Assembly (NCBI GenBank): GCA_026390695.1
Contig: JAPLFL010000031.1
Coordinates: forward strand, 1 to 64,000
Direction: 5' to 3'
Source of the DNA: Candidatus Kapaibacterium sp.
GTDB taxonomy: Bacteria; Bacteroidota; Ignavibacteria; Kapaibacteriales; UBA2268
Length of the DNA: 64,000 bases
Shown here: piece after piece, positions 56,186 to 64,000 of the stretch
Position numbering within the stretch: the first letter of the stretch is position 1
Layout: each line of letters starts with the position of its first letter
Program-made: the position numbers and the translations under genes
The notes under the pieces: model-generated
The model's database searches: none
The model's input: the letters and a program-made list of their open reading frames with translations, nothing else
What the model was told of the DNA's origin: nothing

Positions 56186-57055
56186 TTAATTACCGCTGAA
56201 GTTTATTTCATCCTGAACCGATGGTAAGGCTAAAGAATGGTTAATAGAATATTTTATTTGGTTTAATTGTGTTTGTAAACGAGCATCAATAGATCCGGCT
56301 GATGTTTCGATCACACAATCGTTCTTTTCCAGTGAAACGTCCCCTGAAATAACTATTTGATCAGCCTTGTCAATTTCAGGAACCAGAGCAGCCCTTGCAT
56401 CAAATAAAATTTTAACATTATCGGGATGAACACGAATTTTAAAAATAATATCGTTATTCAAAGTTGAAATTGCTTTTTTAGCTTGATTAACAATTTCCAA
56501 AGAATTTTCGTGCATTTCATGACCTAAAATATGTTCAGCAACGATAATAGCAAGCTCTCCAAGTGATTCTTCAAAATTTCTAAGAGATTCCCGATAACTT
56601 TTTTGCAATTTTTCAGAAATACTGTCAAAATTAATAATATTAGTATGGAATGCCTCCAATTCCTGATTGAAAGACCCTATCATGGCTTCTTTTCCATCTT
56701 TAAATCCAAGATCATAAGCATTTTGAACTTCGGCTTGAACAATAGATAATGGTAATGACTCTTCAGGAATTTTCTTTAAAGATATTTCTATTGGTTTATC
56801 AACATTAGAAATTGTAAATTCCTCAGTGAAGAGAACTCTTTTCTCAATCTTAGCAGCTTCAGCAGCAGCACGCTCTTCCTCTTGCAAACGTTCATACTCT
56901 TCTCGAATTTTAACTTGCTCTTCGTTAAATTTTTGAATTTGAATTCTCTCCTCAGCCAAACGACGCTTCATTACCTCAGTTTGGATAAGATCCTTTGAGC
57001 GAATTATTCTGACAGTATTAACAATTTTTGGTATTTTAACCTGAATTTGAGCCAC
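56186..57055 (-). CDS. fliH: Flagellar assembly protein FliH
   Basis: 289 residues. A long charged N-terminal region and coiled coil (about 20-80, EERIQIQKFNEEQVKIREEY) precede the conserved part (VQNAYDLGFKDGKEAMIGSF, LGELAIIVAEHILGHEMHEN) and a V-type ATPase E-subunit-like C-terminal domain (RVHPDNVKILFDARAALVPE, SLEKNDCVIETSAGSIDARL). FliH is the peripheral stalk regulating FliI. 18 bases after fliG. Confidence 0.92.
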   Translation of the reverse strand: MAQIQVKIPKIVNTVRIIRSKDLIQTEVMKRRLAEERIQIQKFNEEQVKIREEYERLQEEERAAAEAAKIEKRVLFTEEFTISNVDKPIEISLKKIPEESLPLSIVQAEVQNAYDLGFKDGKEAMIGSFNQELEAFHTNIINFDSISEKLQKSYRESLRNFEESLGELAIIVAEHILGHEMHENSLEIVNQAKKAISTLNNDIIFKIRVHPDNVKILFDARAALVPEIDKADQIVISGDVSLEKNDCVIETSAGSIDARLQTQLNQIKYSINHSLALPSVQDEINFSGN

Positions 57056-57073
57056 TTCTGCGATTTTCTAATA

Positions 57074-58099
57074 TTAAACAAATATATCTTCTTTACCACG
57101 TCCACCGACGACAATTTCTTCCTGATCTTCAAGTTTCTTAATAATATCAACAATACGTAACTGAGCAGCTTCCACTTCCTTAAGTTTAACGGGCCCCATA
57201 AATTCTAATTCTTCTTTTACAACTGCAGCAGCACGTTCTGACATATTTCTAAATATTTTTGTACGAATTTTTTCATCCGACACTTTAAGAGCCAGAGCCA
57301 AATCTCGTTTGTCAACATCGCGGAGAATACGCTGAACGCCCTTGTCATCGACCTGAACAATATCGTCAAACAAGAACATCATTCTCTTAATATCAATCGC
57401 TAATTGAGGATCTTTATCTTCAATAGATTCCAATAAGAATTTAGCAACAGCATTATTACTTTTATTCAAAATCGACGCTACAAGCTGTGCTCCACCGGCT
57501 GAGGCAAGATTTTGAGATAAAGTAGCTTCGGCAATCTGATCTACCACATGTTCAATTTGAGTAACAAGCTCAGGAGAGACTTTCCCTGTTTTAGCAATTC
57601 TGATAATAGTTTCGCCCCGGAGTTCTTCTGAAAATTCATTTAAAACTTCAGCAGTAAGATCAGCAGGCAAATGAGAAAGAATGAGCGCAATTGTCTGTGG
57701 ATGTTCCTTTGATAAAAAATTTGCAAGTTGTGCCGGATCTGCTTTTTTCAAAATACTAAAGCCACGTACTGTGGTCAATACTCTAACTTTTTCAATAATA
57801 TCGCGTGCTTTTTCAAGACCATAAGTTTTTTCAAGAAGCACTTGGGCATATTCAAGACCACCTTCAATCATATAAGACTGAGCGGTCATCATTTGATAAA
57901 ACTCTTCAATGACGTCTTCAACCACGTTCGGATGAATATCCCTTAAATTAGTTATTTCAACCGCAATCTGCTCTACTTCCTTCATATCAAGTTCTTTAAA
58001 AACTTTTGCAGATGTTTCTACATCCATTGACATGAGGAGTACGGCAGCTTTTTGTTTACCGGTTAGCGATTTTACACTTATAGAGGTTTCTTGTTTCAT
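57074..58099 (-). CDS. fliG: Flagellar motor switch protein FliG
   Basis: 341 residues, standard. Rotor component that transmits torque from the stator. N-terminal FliF-binding domain (SLTGKQKAAVLLMSMDVETS), middle domain (EHPQTIALILSHLPADLTAE, the EHPQTIA motif) and C-terminal torque helix (FDDIVQVDDKGVQRILRDVD, with the charged residues). 67 bases after fliF. Confidence 0.97.
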   Translation of the reverse strand: MKQETSISVKSLTGKQKAAVLLMSMDVETSAKVFKELDMKEVEQIAVEITNLRDIHPNVVEDVIEEFYQMMTAQSYMIEGGLEYAQVLLEKTYGLEKARDIIEKVRVLTTVRGFSILKKADPAQLANFLSKEHPQTIALILSHLPADLTAEVLNEFSEELRGETIIRIAKTGKVSPELVTQIEHVVDQIAEATLSQNLASAGGAQLVASILNKSNNAVAKFLLESIEDKDPQLAIDIKRMMFLFDDIVQVDDKGVQRILRDVDKRDLALALKVSDEKIRTKIFRNMSERAAAVVKEELEFMGPVKLKEVEAAQLRIVDIIKKLEDQEEIVVGGRGKEDIFV

Positions 58100-58166
58100 T
58101 TTATCTTTTATTATATATCAAATAATTAATACGAATAGTCCATTGATTTATTTCATTAATTAATTA

Positions 58167-59915
58167 TTATGGATTATTTTCAATATCCTGAGAGAAAAAC
58201 ATTCTAATCAAACGAACTGAATCCTCGGTATTATTATCCAAATATGAAGCAACTTTATTTTTTATTTCAATTTTAATTAATTTATCTTCGGTCATTTCCT
58301 CGGTTTCAAAATCATCTAATCTGGCACGAGCCTGTTCAGCAAGAGATGCTTTATCGAAACCATCGGTGAATTCGGCTGCTTCTTCGCTTTCCCGCTCTTC
58401 ACGCATACCTTCGAGTAATAATTGTTCTGGTAATTCAGCAGGAAGAAGCATAAGATCATCTTCTCCTAAATCAATTTCTTCTAACTCTTCTTCTACCTCT
58501 TCGTGATCTTCCTCATCAATATGCACGTGCTCAGGAAGTGAGAATGCAAGGCGTAATCTTTCGCGAACCTGCTTTGAGTGAAGAATTCTATAAATCACTA
58601 ATAAAATAATCAATAGAGAAACAACTAAGAAAATTATTTTTTGATATTCATGGTTTTTCCACCAAGGTCCTTGCAATACTTGATCAAAATCTTCTTCGGG
58701 AGTCATAGTATCAAATTCAACATTAATTATAGACACCTGATCATTACGATTCGGATCATATCCGACAGCGTTCTTTATAATTAAGGTTAAGTTATCCATG
58801 TCCTTTTGATCTCGTGGAAGATATTGAACTTCTTTTTTTCCCTCTTTTTCAATTATTTTGTTTTTACCATTGATCAAACCTGCTACCGATAAGCGCTTGA
58901 CATTTCCTACACCCTGAACGATTTTCTCAACTGTTTTTGAAATTTCATAATTTGATATTACATTTGATGATTTTTTATCCATATTGACGGCCGGATAACT
59001 CAAAGAATCAGATGATTTATTATTGTCAACAATATTCTGTTCACTGCGAATAACCTGACGTTCAGGATCAAAATCAGTAATTGTTTTTTCAATTTGTGTA
59101 AAATCAAGTTCGGCATTTACGCGAACCTCGCTATTGCCCTGCCCGATCACACCATCAAGCAGAGATTGAGCTTTTTCTGCAAGATACTGCTCAACTTTCC
59201 GCTGTTGTTCATATTGTGCATTCGTTAAACCGGCAACAGTTTTAGTATCAAGGGCAGGTTCATTAATAATTTTACCACGCTGATCGACAATTGTCACAGC
59301 ATCGGGCTTCAATCCCTCTACACTGCTTGCAACAAGATGCTGAATTCCCTCAATACTTATTTTATTTAAACTCTTACCATTCTTTAATTTTAACGAAACA
59401 GATGCAGTCGGTTCTTTCTGATCTTTATCAAAAAGCGCCTTTTCAGGAAGAACTATATGGACACGTACTTTTTTAATTTCCTCCAATGCACCAATTGTCC
59501 GAGCAAGCTCACCTTCCAGCGCACGTTTATAATTTAATTTTTGAACAAATTCGCTCATACCCAGGTTGGTTTTATCGAAAATATCATAGCCTGCCACTGA
59601 TGTCTGAGGAAGTCCTTCGGCTGCTAATGCCAATCTTGTATCAGCAACAATCTTTTTATCTACAAGAATTGTGTTTCCATTATCTTTTAACTCATATTTT
59701 ATCAGTTTTTCTTTTAATTTATTTATAATCTGACCGGCATCATTCTCATCAAGAGAAGTAAAAAGAGTTCCCATTTCAACATCTTTGCCGGATGATAATA
59801 AAGTAATCAATCCACCGATTACCAAAATTAATACTGAACCAATTACAATTTTCTGCCAAAGCACGAGTTTATTGTAAAATTGTTTAACTTGAGATATTAC
59901 TTGAGATTCAGCCAT
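58167..59915 (-). CDS. fliF: Flagellar M-ring protein FliF
   Basis: 582 residues. Builds the MS ring. A TM helix near 18-40 (IVIGSVLILVIGGLITLLSS), ring-building motif domains (KIKKVRVHIVLPEKALF, SVSLKLKNGKSL, VEGLKPDAVTIVDQRGKI), a periplasmic loop, a second TM helix near 418-440 (IIFLVVSLLIILLVIYRILH) and an acidic cytoplasmic tail ending in the FliG-binding segment (SYLDNNTEDSVRLIRMFFSQ). The tail is unusually Glu-rich (EEDHEEVEEELEEIDLGEDD). Confidence 0.96.
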   Translation of the reverse strand: MAESQVISQVKQFYNKLVLWQKIVIGSVLILVIGGLITLLSSGKDVEMGTLFTSLDENDAGQIINKLKEKLIKYELKDNGNTILVDKKIVADTRLALAAEGLPQTSVAGYDIFDKTNLGMSEFVQKLNYKRALEGELARTIGALEEIKKVRVHIVLPEKALFDKDQKEPTASVSLKLKNGKSLNKISIEGIQHLVASSVEGLKPDAVTIVDQRGKIINEPALDTKTVAGLTNAQYEQQRKVEQYLAEKAQSLLDGVIGQGNSEVRVNAELDFTQIEKTITDFDPERQVIRSEQNIVDNNKSSDSLSYPAVNMDKKSSNVISNYEISKTVEKIVQGVGNVKRLSVAGLINGKNKIIEKEGKKEVQYLPRDQKDMDNLTLIIKNAVGYDPNRNDQVSIINVEFDTMTPEEDFDQVLQGPWWKNHEYQKIIFLVVSLLIILLVIYRILHSKQVRERLRLAFSLPEHVHIDEEDHEEVEEELEEIDLGEDDLMLLPAELPEQLLLEGMREERESEEAAEFTDGFDKASLAEQARARLDDFETEEMTEDKLIKIEIKNKVASYLDNNTEDSVRLIRMFFSQDIENNP

Positions 59916-60050
59916 TATTTATTTCTTCTATGTAAATTTCTATAATTTTATATTCATTCAGGAAAATCCAACTCATATATTTTAGAATTACCATTTCACA
60001 CATCCTTTGAAAAAGGAGTTAACGGGATTTTCATTTTACAATTTCCTCAC

Positions 60051-60359
60051 TTATACCTGCAATCTATTCACTTCATGATAAAGGTCTAAGCCCTTATTTC
60101 TCAATTCCATAAGAAGCTGAAAACTTGTTTTGGCTTTTTCAGCAGTAATCATAACGTCATGTATATCAACGGGTTCGCCCTTGATCATTTTCTCATTTTG
60201 ATCAGCCGAATCACGTTGTAGAGAGTTAACATCATGGATAAACTCTTTCAAAGTATCTGTAAATGACTCTGATTTTGCTGAAGAAATGCCATTATTCTGC
60301 ATTTTTTGTTCAACAAGCGGTAGATATTTTTTACCAAGTTCAATATCGTTCGTTACCAT
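60051..60359 (-). CDS. fliE: Flagellar hook-basal body protein FliE
   Basis: 102 residues. The MS ring-rod junction protein. ESFTDTLKEFIHDVNSLQRD, the central ..D.HDVMITAEKAKTSFQLLM and the ending ELRNKGLDLYHEVNRLQV match FliE closely. It is 135 bases before fliF; upstream lies the heptad repeat region. Confidence 0.93.
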   Translation of the reverse strand: MVTNDIELGKKYLPLVEQKMQNNGISSAKSESFTDTLKEFIHDVNSLQRDSADQNEKMIKGEPVDIHDVMITAEKAKTSFQLLMELRNKGLDLYHEVNRLQV

Positions 60360-60588
60360 ATTCCTCTTTCAGTAAGTTTTTTATTATGAGTTATGAGTTA
60401 TAAACAATTCTGCATTTTTCATTCTGCATTCTACATTCTACATTTTTCATTTTTCATTCTGCATTCTACATTTTTCATTCTACATTTTTCATTTTACATT
60501 TTTCATTCTACATTTTTTAAAAAGTTCAATATTAACCACCTGCCCAATATTATCAACCAATTCTTCACCATTAACCATTCACCATTAT
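60360..60588. other. Low-complexity gap between fliE and the 96-residue gene
   Basis: 229 bases with no gene. It begins with a TTATGAGTTATGAGTTATAA word (60383-60402), contains fifteen tandem heptads (60413-60517) and ends in short AT-rich words. The plus-strand open frame here (FILHSTFFIL-type) is a translation of the heptads. Confidence 0.75.
60413..60517. repeat. Heptanucleotide tandem repeat, 15 units
   Basis: 105 bases exactly divide into 15 consecutive heptads of the form CATTYTD: CATTTTT (seven), CATTCTA (five), CATTCTG (two), CATTTTA (one), in irregular order. The period of 7 is not a multiple of 3 and it lies in the flagellar operon upstream of fliE. Confidence 0.9.
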
Positions 60589-60879
60589 CTAAGCTAAGCC
60601 ATCGACAAACATTCCCTTCGAAAAACTTGTGGTTTGTAATTTCCCGTTCCGGTTAAATACAACATGCCTTGAGAGCTGGGCAGAGCTGTCCGGGAACATA
60701 TTCATAAAGAATGCCCGCTCTTTTTTAGTAATTATTTTATTCGGATTAGCTAAGGTTTTCTCCGTCCTACTAATCGTTTTAAAGTCAAGTCCACTGGAAT
60801 CAATTCTTTGCTTTGGAATTGAATCGCCGTTATGCAGCGGATAAGTATCCGTATTAAAATCGTAACCCTGAATTCTCAT
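60589..60879 (-). CDS. Unknown 96-residue protein in the flagellar operon
   Basis: I do not recognise the family. The N-terminal half is polar (DFNTDTYPLHNGDSIPKQRI). The C-terminal half, TKKERAFFMNMFPDSSAQLS then RHVVFNRNGKL...SKGMFVDGLA, looks like a compact conserved domain. No signal peptide or membrane helix. It sits between flgC and fliE, a position usually empty, which suggests a role in rod or basal-body assembly in this lineage. Confidence 0.65.
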   Translation of the reverse strand: MRIQGYDFNTDTYPLHNGDSIPKQRIDSSGLDFKTISRTEKTLANPNKIITKKERAFFMNMFPDSSAQLSRHVVFNRNGKLQTTSFSKGMFVDGLA

Positions 60880-60995
60880 ACTCTACCATACATTAATTAG
60901 CAATCAGCCAACACATTTTCCCCCTCCGCGTTTCCTTTTCTTCCTCTTTTGCCAGTAGATACAATTCAGTAAATCAGCATTTAAGCAGATTTAAT

Positions 60996-61481
60996 CTATA
61001 TTTCAAGCGAATCCCGCGCTATGTTCTTCGCAGAATCGACGACAGATGTATTTGCCTCGAAAGCCCTTTGAGCTGCAATCATCTCGACCATTTCGGTGAC
61101 TATATTTATATTTGGCATAGAAACATATCCACTTTCATCGGCATCGGGATGAGAAGGATCGTAAACGAGCCTCGGAGGCGATGCATCAGTTGTAGTAGCT
61201 ACTTTCAAAACTCTATAATCCGGCGGATAAGTTCCCGGATGAGCCGTAGGAGCATGATCGTTAGTCGTTCGTGAAAGCGACAACTGACTATCAAGTTCCT
61301 CTTCAAATGGACTTCCGGGAATAGCGCGGGCAATAACCACTTCTCGCTTATATGGCTGCCCATCGATACTTTTGGTTGTGTTCACGTTTGCAATATTTTT
61401 AGCCGTAGCCGAAAGCCGCATTCGTTGTACACTCATTCCCTGCCCGCTTATTGCAAAAGCTGCAAAAACATTTTCCGCCAT
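60996..61481 (-). CDS. flgC: Flagellar basal-body rod protein FlgC
   Basis: 161 residues from the ATG at 61481 (MAENVFAAFAISGQGMSVQR), which aligns with other FlgC starts; an ATG ten codons upstream is possible. Axial-protein signature RMRLSATAKNIANVNTTKSI at the N-terminus and the C-terminal helix VTEMVEMIAAQRAFEANTSV. It follows flgB by 88 bases from this start. Confidence 0.94.
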   Translation of the reverse strand: MAENVFAAFAISGQGMSVQRMRLSATAKNIANVNTTKSIDGQPYKREVVIARAIPGSPFEEELDSQLSLSRTTNDHAPTAHPGTYPPDYRVLKVATTTDASPPRLVYDPSHPDADESGYVSMPNINIVTEMVEMIAAQRAFEANTSVVDSAKNIARDSLEI

Positions 61482-61569
61482 CTGTTCATCCTGAATATTT
61501 AAACATTTCAAAAATAACCCTAATTTAAACCTATGTGAATAGGTACTAATACCTAATCTTTACAAAGAA

Positions 61570-61998
61570 CTACTGGATTGTCCCGCGAATAGCCGAAGCC
61601 ATTCCTGCAAAATAGCGTTTCACAGCCCCGGAAGCAAAACGAAACCGGATTTGATTCTGTGCCATTTCGGACATTTCCTTATCAATATTTACATGTGTTT
61701 CACCGGAAAAATAAATTTCAGGTTTTGGTATTTGTGAATTTTCTATTTCGCCGGTTACGCTGCTTTCGTCGGGTTTACCTATTGGAATGTGCATTTCATC
61801 GTCCTTAGAGCCCGATGCAACCACTTCCTGATCCTGGAAAAATTCTTCAAATTTGACGCGTTCCGGCCTGTAGTGCGGCGATGTGACGTTTGCAATATTT
61901 TTTGAAGTTGTTCTTGTACGCAGTGCATACGCATCCAATGCCCTATTCATTAATGGCAGGTTGGATTTGAACATATATTGTCTAAAAATCATCAGCAT
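61570..61998 (-). CDS. flgB: Flagellar basal-body rod protein FlgB
   Basis: 142 residues from the ATG at 61998, with TTAGG just upstream (a later ATG at 61974 is possible). MNRALDAYALRTRTTSKNIA, then NVTSPHYRPERVKFEEFF, matches FlgB; the C-terminal helix MSEMAQNQIRFRFASGAVKR is typical. First gene of the 14.4 kb operon; a sigma-54-like motif lies 42 bases upstream. Confidence 0.93.
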   Translation of the reverse strand: MLMIFRQYMFKSNLPLMNRALDAYALRTRTTSKNIANVTSPHYRPERVKFEEFFQDQEVVASGSKDDEMHIPIGKPDESSVTGEIENSQIPKPEIYFSGETHVNIDKEMSEMAQNQIRFRFASGAVKRYFAGMASAIRGTIQ

Positions 61999-62057: not shown

Positions 62058-62251
62058 TTCTCAGAATGAGGGAAAGCCTTGCCGGAAGCGGGCTATAAAA
62101 TTTCCTAATTATTACGTAACTTTTTACTTATGGTTAATAATCCGCAAAAAATAATTTGTGGCGAGAGTTGGACAATTTGGGATTACGAATTATTTGGAAT
62201 CAACAAAAATTAATATTCACTCAAGTCAGATGTTACCAATGACACTCTTAT

Positions 62252-62292
62252 AAAATCTCCCCTGCCCATCTTTTGCGGGTGAGGGGATTTTT
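62252..62292 (-). terminator. Terminator of the Sia-type operon
   Basis: On the minus strand AAAATCCCCTCACCC pairs (with one internal mismatch region) with GGGCAGGGGAGATTTT around a short loop. It lies right after the stop of the gene at 62296. Confidence 0.75.
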
Positions 62293-62295
62293 ATA

Positions 62296-62772: not shown

Positions 62773-63153
62773 TTATATCTCAATAAATTTAATGTCCAAA
62801 TTTAGAATTTCCTTAAAATCCTCACCAATTTCTTTAATTTCTTCGTCTCCATCTTCATAGTACCACTCCACTTGAAGTGAATAATCTGTATTATATTCCT
62901 TAACCTCTTTAAATTTTTTAAACAGTTCAAGCAGAAATTTTGATGAACTTGTATTAAAATAATCAAGTTCCATTTTTATTTGTGTAACAGGTAAAGGAAT
63001 TTGAACATAATCGCTGATCCAAGAGATGACTGGTTGGTAAAAATTAAATGTATCTTCGGGTATGGATCTACCCTTTAATTGGCACACTCCGCTTTTACAA
63101 TCAAAATTAATTAGTGGAGTCTTTTTTGAACTTTCAATAAATAAGTTTTCCAT
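62773..63153 (-). CDS. SiaC-family regulatory phosphoprotein (DUF1987)
   Basis: 126 residues, the family length. SiaC is the switch of Sia modules: it is phosphorylated by SiaB and dephosphorylated by SiaA, and only the unphosphorylated form activates the target enzyme (known from Pseudomonas). The family motif DYFNTSSSKFLLELFKKF is intact and contains T68, the residue phosphorylated in the Pseudomonas protein as I recall. Rest: GRSIPEDTFNFYQPVISWIS. It is 7 bases after the phosphatase/kinase gene and abuts the next gene. Confidence 0.9.
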   Translation of the reverse strand: MENLFIESSKKTPLINFDCKSGVCQLKGRSIPEDTFNFYQPVISWISDYVQIPLPVTQIKMELDYFNTSSSKFLLELFKKFKEVKEYNTDYSLQVEWYYEDGDEEIKEIGEDFKEILNLDIKFIEI

Positions 63154-63160
63154 ATTTTCC

Positions 63161-64000
63161 TCATTGATTTTTAAAAGTTACTTTTAATGAGAATTTTGAA
63201 TGATCCTCATCAATTTCAAAAATTTTATATATTAAATTAGAGTCGCATTTTGATGCAATATAATAGAACCCTAAACCAGCACTGCTTTTTTGGGGCATTT
63301 GTCCACTGCTGAGTTGAGATTTGTAAAATTCCTTAATCTCCTCTTTTGATTTTGAATGAACAAAATCAAGTTTTTCTTTAAGATTATAAATGTTAGAGTT
63401 CAAAATATTATTTGTTGTTTCAATACAAAAAAGATCATTTTCGAGCGTAACCGAAATTGAAAATTCCTTATCGAATTTATCAGTCTCAAAACTTGTATAA
63501 TAATTATAGCAATTTTGTAGAATTTCAATCAAAACAGTATTAATTCTTTTTCTTAATACTTTATTTATTTCATTTTCCAATAGATATTCTTCAACAGTAT
63601 CTGTAATTTTGGAGATAACCGGACTTGATGTTTCACCCTGATAAGAAATAATTAACTTATATGATGCTTTTATAAGTTCCTCCTTTTTAAATTTCACTCC
63701 AATCAGAAGAATGTCATCAACCTGTTCTTCTTTACCCTTCCATTCAAAGAAGTCTTCTTTCAGTTTACTAACTTGATCATAAATATCCATTTTTCTATAT
63801 TCAACAAAAGCACTTTTCAATCTTAGTGGCAGAAATTTATTATTTTTTGGGCCTCCGAACTGATCAGTATAACCATCTGTACCGATATACATAACATCCT
63901 CATCTTCCAATCTAATTGTATGACAAGAAAAGGGAATGTTCATGTTTGTCGAAAACCCTATCGGCATTCTGTCTCCCTTTATTACTATCAAATGTTCTCT
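63161..64000 (-). CDS. SpoIIE/PP2C phosphatase fused to SiaB-like kinase (N-terminus cut off)
   Basis: The frame is open to the window edge, so the N-terminus is missing. The first 90 visible residues are the end of a SpoIIE/PP2C phosphatase domain (IKGDRMPIGF, MYIGTDGYTDQFGG with metal-ligand Asp, VDDILLIGVKF with a second). From about residue 105 a SiaB-type kinase domain begins (SYQGETSSPVISKITDTVEE, the N-box-like NTVLIEILQNCYNYY, and the glycine loop SAGLGFYYIASKC). SiaA and SiaB are separate proteins in Pseudomonas; here antagonistic phosphatase and kinase appear in one chain next to SiaC, their expected substrate. Confidence 0.82.
   Translation of the reverse strand, partial: REHLIVIKGDRMPIGFSTNMNIPFSCHTIRLEDEDVMYIGTDGYTDQFGGPKNNKFLPLRLKSAFVEYRKMDIYDQVSKLKEDFFEWKGKEEQVDDILLIGVKFKKEELIKASYKLIISYQGETSSPVISKITDTVEEYLLENEINKVLRKRINTVLIEILQNCYNYYTSFETDKFDKEFSISVTLENDLFCIETTNNILNSNIYNLKEKLDFVHSKSKEEIKEFYKSQLSSGQMPQKSSAGLGFYYIASKCDSNLIYKIFEIDEDHSKFSLKVTFKNQ

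Follow-up and report, generated by a model that had tools for sequence, protein, structure and literature searches.

A receiver-SpoIIE-SiaB fusion beside SiaC in Candidatus Kapaibacterium, predicted to set a partner switch that docks on a membrane-anchored stalk protein

Does a single polypeptide of Candidatus Kapaibacterium both add and remove the phosphate that sets the state of SiaC? The initial annotation of a 64,000-nt stretch of contig (hereafter the window) had placed a SpoIIE/PP2C phosphatase end and a SiaB-like kinase domain in one continuous frame next to siaC, and had set this against Pseudomonas, where SiaA and SiaB are indeed separate proteins (PMC7647112). On the minus strand, positions 63161-64000 form a single open frame of 279 codons that leaves the edge of the window. 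The contig (111,861 bp) reaches past this edge, and the whole gene (C121:63161-65038, minus strand) encodes 625 residues with no internal stop; nothing interrupts the frame, and the frameshift at the domain border that had been entertained as a counter-explanation is not there. The features of the locus are collected in Table 1.

With the upstream sequence in hand, a receiver domain was found at residues 8-123 of the full protein (PF00072, 8e-17, above the Pfam cut-off), joined by a helical linker to a SpoIIE phosphatase domain (PF07228, residues 235-450, 1e-15, 58.5 bits against a cut-off of 25). The C-terminal half matched DUF6272 (PF19788, residues 488-616, 2e-23, 82.9 bits against 26.6) and the SiaB_fam_kinase model of NCBIfam (100.1 bits against 85), so that both families were above cut-off and the earlier worry that this half might belong to no SiaB family falls away. 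The equivalog models for SiaB (NF038264, 44.5 against 225) and SiaA (140.7 against 700) were matched below their NCBIfam cut-offs. The top PDB match of residues 167-450 was 6k4e, titled 'Putative serine phosphatase' (E 1.4e-18), which we take to be the PP2C domain of SiaA. The phosphatase motifs GDFYW, DCTGHG, DGMD, TDG and QVDD are all present, as are receiver residues D12, D13, D64, T92 and K115; the roles that we assign to them, including metal binding by the aspartates of the phosphatase motifs, are presumed. Among the 80 named loci retained, the closest receiver is from Candidatus Kapaibacterium (66% across residues 1-187). A sensory input through the missing N-terminus had been anticipated, and a regulatory input domain does lie there in the form of the receiver. 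Because the N-terminus is a receiver domain, input to the fusion should come by phosphotransfer from a histidine kinase rather than through a sensor of its own; no histidine kinase gene was seen among the adjacent ORFs read.

Table 1. Features of the SiaC locus, in window coordinates.
Feature	Position	Strand	Details
Hairpin between the operon and downstream flagellar genes, possible terminator	62249..62295	.	76-nt stretch -21.4 kcal/mol, z -2.66
Predicted SiaC receptor, 158 aa	62296..62772	-	SiaD-type stalk at residues 3-81, SDRLQ at 54-58; two hydrophobic helices at about 87-141
SiaC, 126 aa, phospho-acceptor T68 (codon 62952-62950) in YFNTSSS	62773..63153	-	PF09345
In-window C-terminal part of the receiver-SpoIIE-SiaB fusion, residues 347-625 of 625	63161..64000	-	Gene extends past the window edge, as far as contig position 65038
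SiaB-family GHKL kinase domain, residues 459-621	63176..63664	-	NF038262; N-box E505/Q508/N509, N543 and G588/G590 retained
Junction, residues 451-458	63665..63688	-	Ribosome-binding-site-like AAGGAGG (63685-63679), 5 nt, then ATA
SpoIIE/PP2C phosphatase, C-terminal part, residues 347-450	63689..64000	-	PF07228; GTDGYTDQ (386-393), QVDD (439-442)

The neighbouring gene had been called siaC, and the call stands: its product matched PF09345 at 3e-37 (127.3 bits against the Pfam cut-off of 24.5). The NCBIfam equivalog model of SiaC was matched below its cut-off (90.3 against 150). Its PDB match is SiaC (E 3.5e-13), and the acceptor T68 bears the identical residue number. A search of the genome found one DUF6272 domain, one SiaC and one stalk protein, all of them at this locus.

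The two halves of the fusion are closely joined: the phosphatase core ends in DDILLIGVKF, and the SiaB core begins only about 10 residues further on. No in-frame ATG lies at the junction; a GTG (V448) is found just ahead of it. The remaining two frames of the same strand contain 10 and 26 stops across the SiaB half. The heptamer AAGGAGG at the junction, which occurs twice in the window when both strands are counted, may be a relic of the start of a formerly separate siaB, and is treated as a hint only because it was spotted post hoc and because a four-base Shine-Dalgarno core precedes 10 of the 36 long ORFs of the window, against 8% of random places. An assembly or sequencing error that erased the stop between two neighbouring genes would also leave such a site at the junction, and would agree with separate spoIIE and siaB genes being the rule in the surveyed genomes and with the lack of another genome of the same genus among the 54 family genomes searched. 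Given 625 open codons, so short a spacing with no ATG in it, and a second receiver-SpoIIE-SiaB fusion in another genome (locus L108), we consider such an error very improbable.

Whether the SiaB half still phosphorylates SiaC is a closer question. When compared with 34 other SiaB rows, it keeps all six invariant columns (G468, E505, Q508, N509, N543 and G590), N-box included. At the 20 columns conserved at 80% or more, however, it keeps ten, less than any other row in the comparison. The 34 rows from which these columns were defined keep at least 13 each; of two rows that are likewise outside the definition, the second fusion retains 17 and SiaB of P. aeruginosa 15. The consensus glycines at 527, 529 and 586 and the arginine at 596 are all serine. 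The branch of this half is 4.17 changes per column long, against 0.8 for the SpoIIE half. Such divergence is what would be seen if the SiaB half had decayed to a docking arm that keeps SiaC in place for the attached phosphatase. The protein would then work as a SiaC phosphatase under receiver control, and its kinase activity would be weak or gone, or another enzyme would provide it; that SiaB was crystallised in complex with SiaC (title of 6kko) suits this view as well. It is the main rival to an active kinase, and we judge it unlikely though well worth keeping in mind. Against it, beside the six invariant columns, stands the fold that is predicted. The C-terminal part matched SiaB of 6kko in a PDB sequence search (E 5e-4), and an AlphaFold model of the SiaB half, built from four sequences (pLDDT 76.2), had 6kko_A, P. 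aeruginosa SiaB, as its first fold match (TM 0.73/0.76, E 6.4e-8, rmsd 2.4), followed by SpoIIAB, with 3ke6 (Rv1364c) also among the matches. The search of the genome found no second DUF6272 protein that could supply the kinase, the fusion being the sole one found, which speaks for kinase activity of this half. We also weighed a SiaB-like half that targets some partner other than the adjacent SiaC, with SiaC merely one ligand, as in the sequestration of RpoS by CrsR; the third domains of CrsR and HsbR bind RpoS besides their antagonists (PMC6482189). Membership of the SiaB family, the adjacency of siaC and the finding of one SiaC and one SiaB domain in the genome make this improbable. The SiaB half is therefore read as a kinase that is probably active but evolving fast, and the activity of both halves on SiaC is inferred from the active-site residues that they retain.

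The third gene of the operon offers a candidate for what SiaC acts upon. Its 158-aa product matched no family model of Pfam or NCBIfam above cut-off, and no enzyme domain, GGDEF included, was found in it; the single GGDEF match of the genome lies elsewhere (contig C15). A homologue with 41% identity occupies the same place after siaC in a Flavobacteriia MAG (L011). A profile of seven SiaD-type stalks, built without either of these proteins, found the 158-aa protein by its first 80 residues at E 1e-9 among the 2074 ORFs of the fetched loci; siaC is present in the loci that the profile hit. Up to E 1, the genome search gave no second stalk protein. A single-sequence PDB search with the 158-aa protein gave nothing usable. 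With the protein included, an eight-stalk profile ranked SiaD (7e6g) first in the PDB, at E 0.0012 for the whole sequence; the match spans both SiaC-binding motifs, but E is just 0.23 and 85 for its individual stretches, and the next entry, close behind at 0.0035, is a designed coiled coil. In SiaD, S82 and Q86 bond T68 of SiaC (PMC8457831), and these correspond to S54 and Q58 of the 158-aa protein. The AlphaFold model of this protein was poor (pLDDT 45.1) and was taken only as showing helical character.

Stalks of this kind follow siaC in 24 of the 38 loci in which SiaC was found by motif, and in the other 14 none was present within the fetched stretch; the motif count missed one locus that has both SiaC and a stalk (L098). 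What the stalk carries differs between loci: above the Pfam cut-off, the attached domains are GGDEF (L101, L102), histidine kinase (L090, L120), nucleotide cyclase (L098, L104) and SpoIIE (L095, L099), and by eye GGDEF in L103 and L109 and histidine kinase in L092 and L093. A stalk followed by two hydrophobic helices was seen in the 158-aa protein and its homologue in L011. Free stalk proteins of 85-99 aa, with no output domain, follow siaC in three loci (L106:815-1072, L107:815-1114 and L108:2259-2516). In two loci of the same family (L095:2275-3324 and L099:62-1087), the protein after siaC joins the stalk to a SpoIIE/PP2C phosphatase, an arrangement in which a phosphatase would be the docking partner of SiaC, with feedback a possible outcome. 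On a plasmid of Azospirillum oryzae (L140:3946-6052), two stalk-bearing proteins are encoded after siaC, one a histidine kinase and the other a diguanylate cyclase, and one SiaC may there serve two outputs.

The membrane hairpin formed by the two helices turns up again in other proteins from the same order, in 4 of 394 genomes in all. It terminates TPR-coiled-coil proteins in L133 (TPR repeats by Pfam) and L134 (alike by eye), with a weak match in L135, and a receiver protein from a Candidatus Kapaibacterium MAG (L063) has it too. Given this recurrence, the hairpin seems to be an anchor that coiled stalks use generally. The L063 locus (L063:4007-7181) encodes three consecutive response regulators whose receivers are alike by eye and whose outputs differ, one ending with the membrane hairpin and one with a histidine-kinase-like part.

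Contacts of the SiaC-SiaD complex were followed through 21 SiaC-stalk pairs that could be used, one of them from P. aeruginosa and many of them close relatives; positions are given as SiaC/stalk. At contact 110/80, all 21 pairs set an acidic residue against a basic one, and 23 of 25 do so when four further loci are added (L126 and L140 fit; L138 and L139 have E/G and do not). At contact 114/77, the base is absent from two stalks only, where it is replaced by M in the 158-aa protein and by I in L011, and these face the only two SiaC proteins with I or V at 114. Shuffling reproduced this match in 101 of 20000 pairings, but the loci of the two hydrophobic pairs are related, and a single event may account for both. 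L099 has K/K at this contact. At contact 103/91, P. aeruginosa has R/D and the window locus E/K; across the 21 pairs, the charges are opposite in nine, seven pair an acid with asparagine, five have a neutral SiaC residue, and none are like-charged. This charge pattern was dropped as evidence for docking, since 2850 of 20000 shuffles were likewise without like charges. Contacts 79/74 and 114/74 of SiaC-SiaD are retained neither at the window locus nor in the other pairs outside P. aeruginosa.

Taken together, we favour, with a probability of roughly 0.6, a reading in which one chain holds a receiver-steered phosphatase and kinase for SiaC, and unphosphorylated SiaC docks on the membrane-anchored stalk protein of the third gene. 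Some kinase would phosphorylate D64 of the receiver, and the helical linker would relay the state of the receiver to the phosphatase. A phosphatase dimer mediated by the linker has been proposed for RsbU, and has been probed by prediction for other input domains, response receivers included (PMC12143880). The SpoIIE/PP2C half would take the phosphate off T68 of SiaC and the SiaB-type GHKL half would add it, as their families and residues suggest, and the balance of the two would fix the share of unphosphorylated SiaC. In HsbR, phosphorylation favours dephosphorylation of HsbA (PMC6482189). Unphosphorylated SiaC would then bind, by the side that carries T68, to the helical stalk in the 158-aa protein, in the manner of SiaC and SiaD in P. 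aeruginosa, a step supported by the stalk motif and, in part, by the contacts; phosphorylation of T68 would block it. The hairpin of the 158-aa protein is predicted to insert in the membrane. For the effect at the membrane our guess, made because SiaD goes from pentamer to dimer (PMC8457831), is a change in the oligomeric state of the 158-aa protein.

The fusion is rare. Three overlapping surveys covered 394 genomes of the phylum, 197 of the class and 54 of the family of the organism. DUF6272 was above cut-off in 21 of the 394 phylum genomes with 32 matches: 26 in frames of 178-212 aa, two in receiver-SpoIIE-SiaB fusions (that of the window, genome G000, and one in G298), two in a tandem double SiaB and two in a stop-broken gene. 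The class survey returned the same two fusions. In the family survey, 10 of 54 genomes were above cut-off, nine of them in frames of 178-208 aa. Combined, 27 genomes had DUF6272 above cut-off and two had a fusion. The second fusion (L108, G298; 573 aa) resembles the first in being receiver-SpoIIE-DUF6272 followed by siaC and then a stalk protein, here an 85-aa protein that is stalk only; its receiver differs by sequence and the acceptor of its SiaC is serine (YLNSSSI). A plasmid search gave 12 records, and the three loci opened, from Azospirillum, Caballeronia and Paraburkholderia, have separate spoIIE and siaB.

Several long proteins with weak DUF6272 matches (L110, L111, L113, L114, L116 and L117) looked histidine-kinase-like on reading and were rejected as fusions; L112, L115, L119 and L131 appeared by eye to be unrelated proteins, and L010 and L012, from Cytophagales, were receiver-SpoIIE proteins without a SiaB half. 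L105 was set aside as a phosphatase fusion, since it is in fact the tandem double SiaB: two SiaB domains share one 364-aa frame (L105:1354-2448, G045) with siaC directly after. In G272 (L109:1468-2029), the SiaB gene is broken by a frameshift or stop, and is followed by siaC and a stalk-GGDEF protein.

Trees of SiaB (36 rows) and SpoIIE (39 rows, partly hand-picked) both require two changes for the fusions, with well supported branches forcing two. An AU test on the SiaB tree gave p 0.0152 against a single fusion clade, with the position of so long a row unsure. The fusion of G298 clusters with G172 and G180, in which receiver-SpoIIE, SiaB and SiaC are encoded by separate neighbouring genes. 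The phosphatase half of the window fusion clusters with L011 at 93/93, just below the mark for strong support, and L011 has separate genes in the order of the window locus; in the SiaB tree, the window row and L011 both fall among seven rows whose branching is unresolved. Separate origins of the two fusions are therefore favoured from these trees, and because the tree relatives have separate adjacent genes, each fusion most likely arose through the joining of neighbours.

The locus combines elements known from several systems. As in SiaABCD of P. aeruginosa, there is a SpoIIE/PP2C phosphatase, a SiaB-type kinase, T68 of SiaC and a stalk protein (PMC7647112, PMC8457831). There, SiaA and SiaB are separate and SiaD is a diguanylate cyclase, whereas the window locus joins phosphatase and kinase in one chain behind a receiver and encodes a stalk protein with a membrane hairpin in place of GGDEF. 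HsbR-HsbA of P. aeruginosa and CrsR-CrsA of Shewanella likewise use a receiver-PP2C-kinase protein to set a small switch protein, but with a GHKL kinase/anti-sigma domain acting on HsbA or CrsA rather than a SiaB-family domain with SiaC as its target (PMC6482189); the antagonist adjoining the window fusion is SiaC (PF09345) and not of the HsbA/CrsA type. SypE-SypA of Vibrio fischeri also places an opposed serine kinase and phosphatase in one response regulator, in the order kinase-receiver-phosphatase, unlike the window fusion (PMC3610818). Rv1364c of Mycobacterium tuberculosis similarly joins partner-switch phosphatase and kinase/anti-sigma domains in one chain; it has PAS input and a fused antagonist domain, and the part of the source available mentions no SiaB or SiaC family part (PMC12143880). 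The layout of a writer and eraser in one protein is thus already known for partner switches from HsbR, CrsR, SypE and Rv1364c, and the window fusion appears, by its domains, to copy that of HsbR and CrsR using Sia parts. Use of SiaB or SiaC was not seen in the available parts of the literature on these four proteins (PMC6482189, PMC3610818, PMC12143880), and no title or abstract in the literature searched, which covers subscription papers thinly, describes a SpoIIE-SiaB fusion.

So far, the SiaC switch has been studied with a separate phosphatase and kinase. If both halves of the fusion work, one protein sets the state of SiaC, and its receiver brings that state under phosphorelay control. Two apparently separate fusions with the domain order of HsbR and CrsR suggest that receiver-phosphatase-kinase is a favoured solution. 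Depending on the locus, stalks are joined to cyclases, histidine kinases, phosphatases or just a membrane hairpin. The SiaC system could be a modular partner switch with the coiled stalk as a portable socket. It would be realised here by three proteins, the receiver-controlled writer-eraser, SiaC and a non-enzymatic membrane receptor, and SiaC would control a process at the membrane without c-di-GMP. We hold this wider reading tentatively, at a little short of even odds, since 14 loci showed no stalk, the single PDB stretches score weakly and the shuffling control undercut contact 103/91. It has been remarked that DUF1987 proteins may modulate adjacent proteins (PMC8457831). The stalk finding turns this remark into a testable rule, by which the output can be read off wherever a stalk lies beside siaC, and here it indicates a membrane protein that bears no second-messenger enzyme.

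Downstream of the operon and on the same strand lies a flagellar cluster (56186-61998), with fliH-, fliG-, fliF-, fliE-, flgC- and flgB-like genes by eye. About 300 bp, hairpin included, separate it from the SiaC operon; this hairpin was not among the hits of a scan for terminator patterns. Within the cluster, a repetitive plus-strand frame at 60393-60656 (ILHSTFFILHF...) is probably simple repeat DNA.
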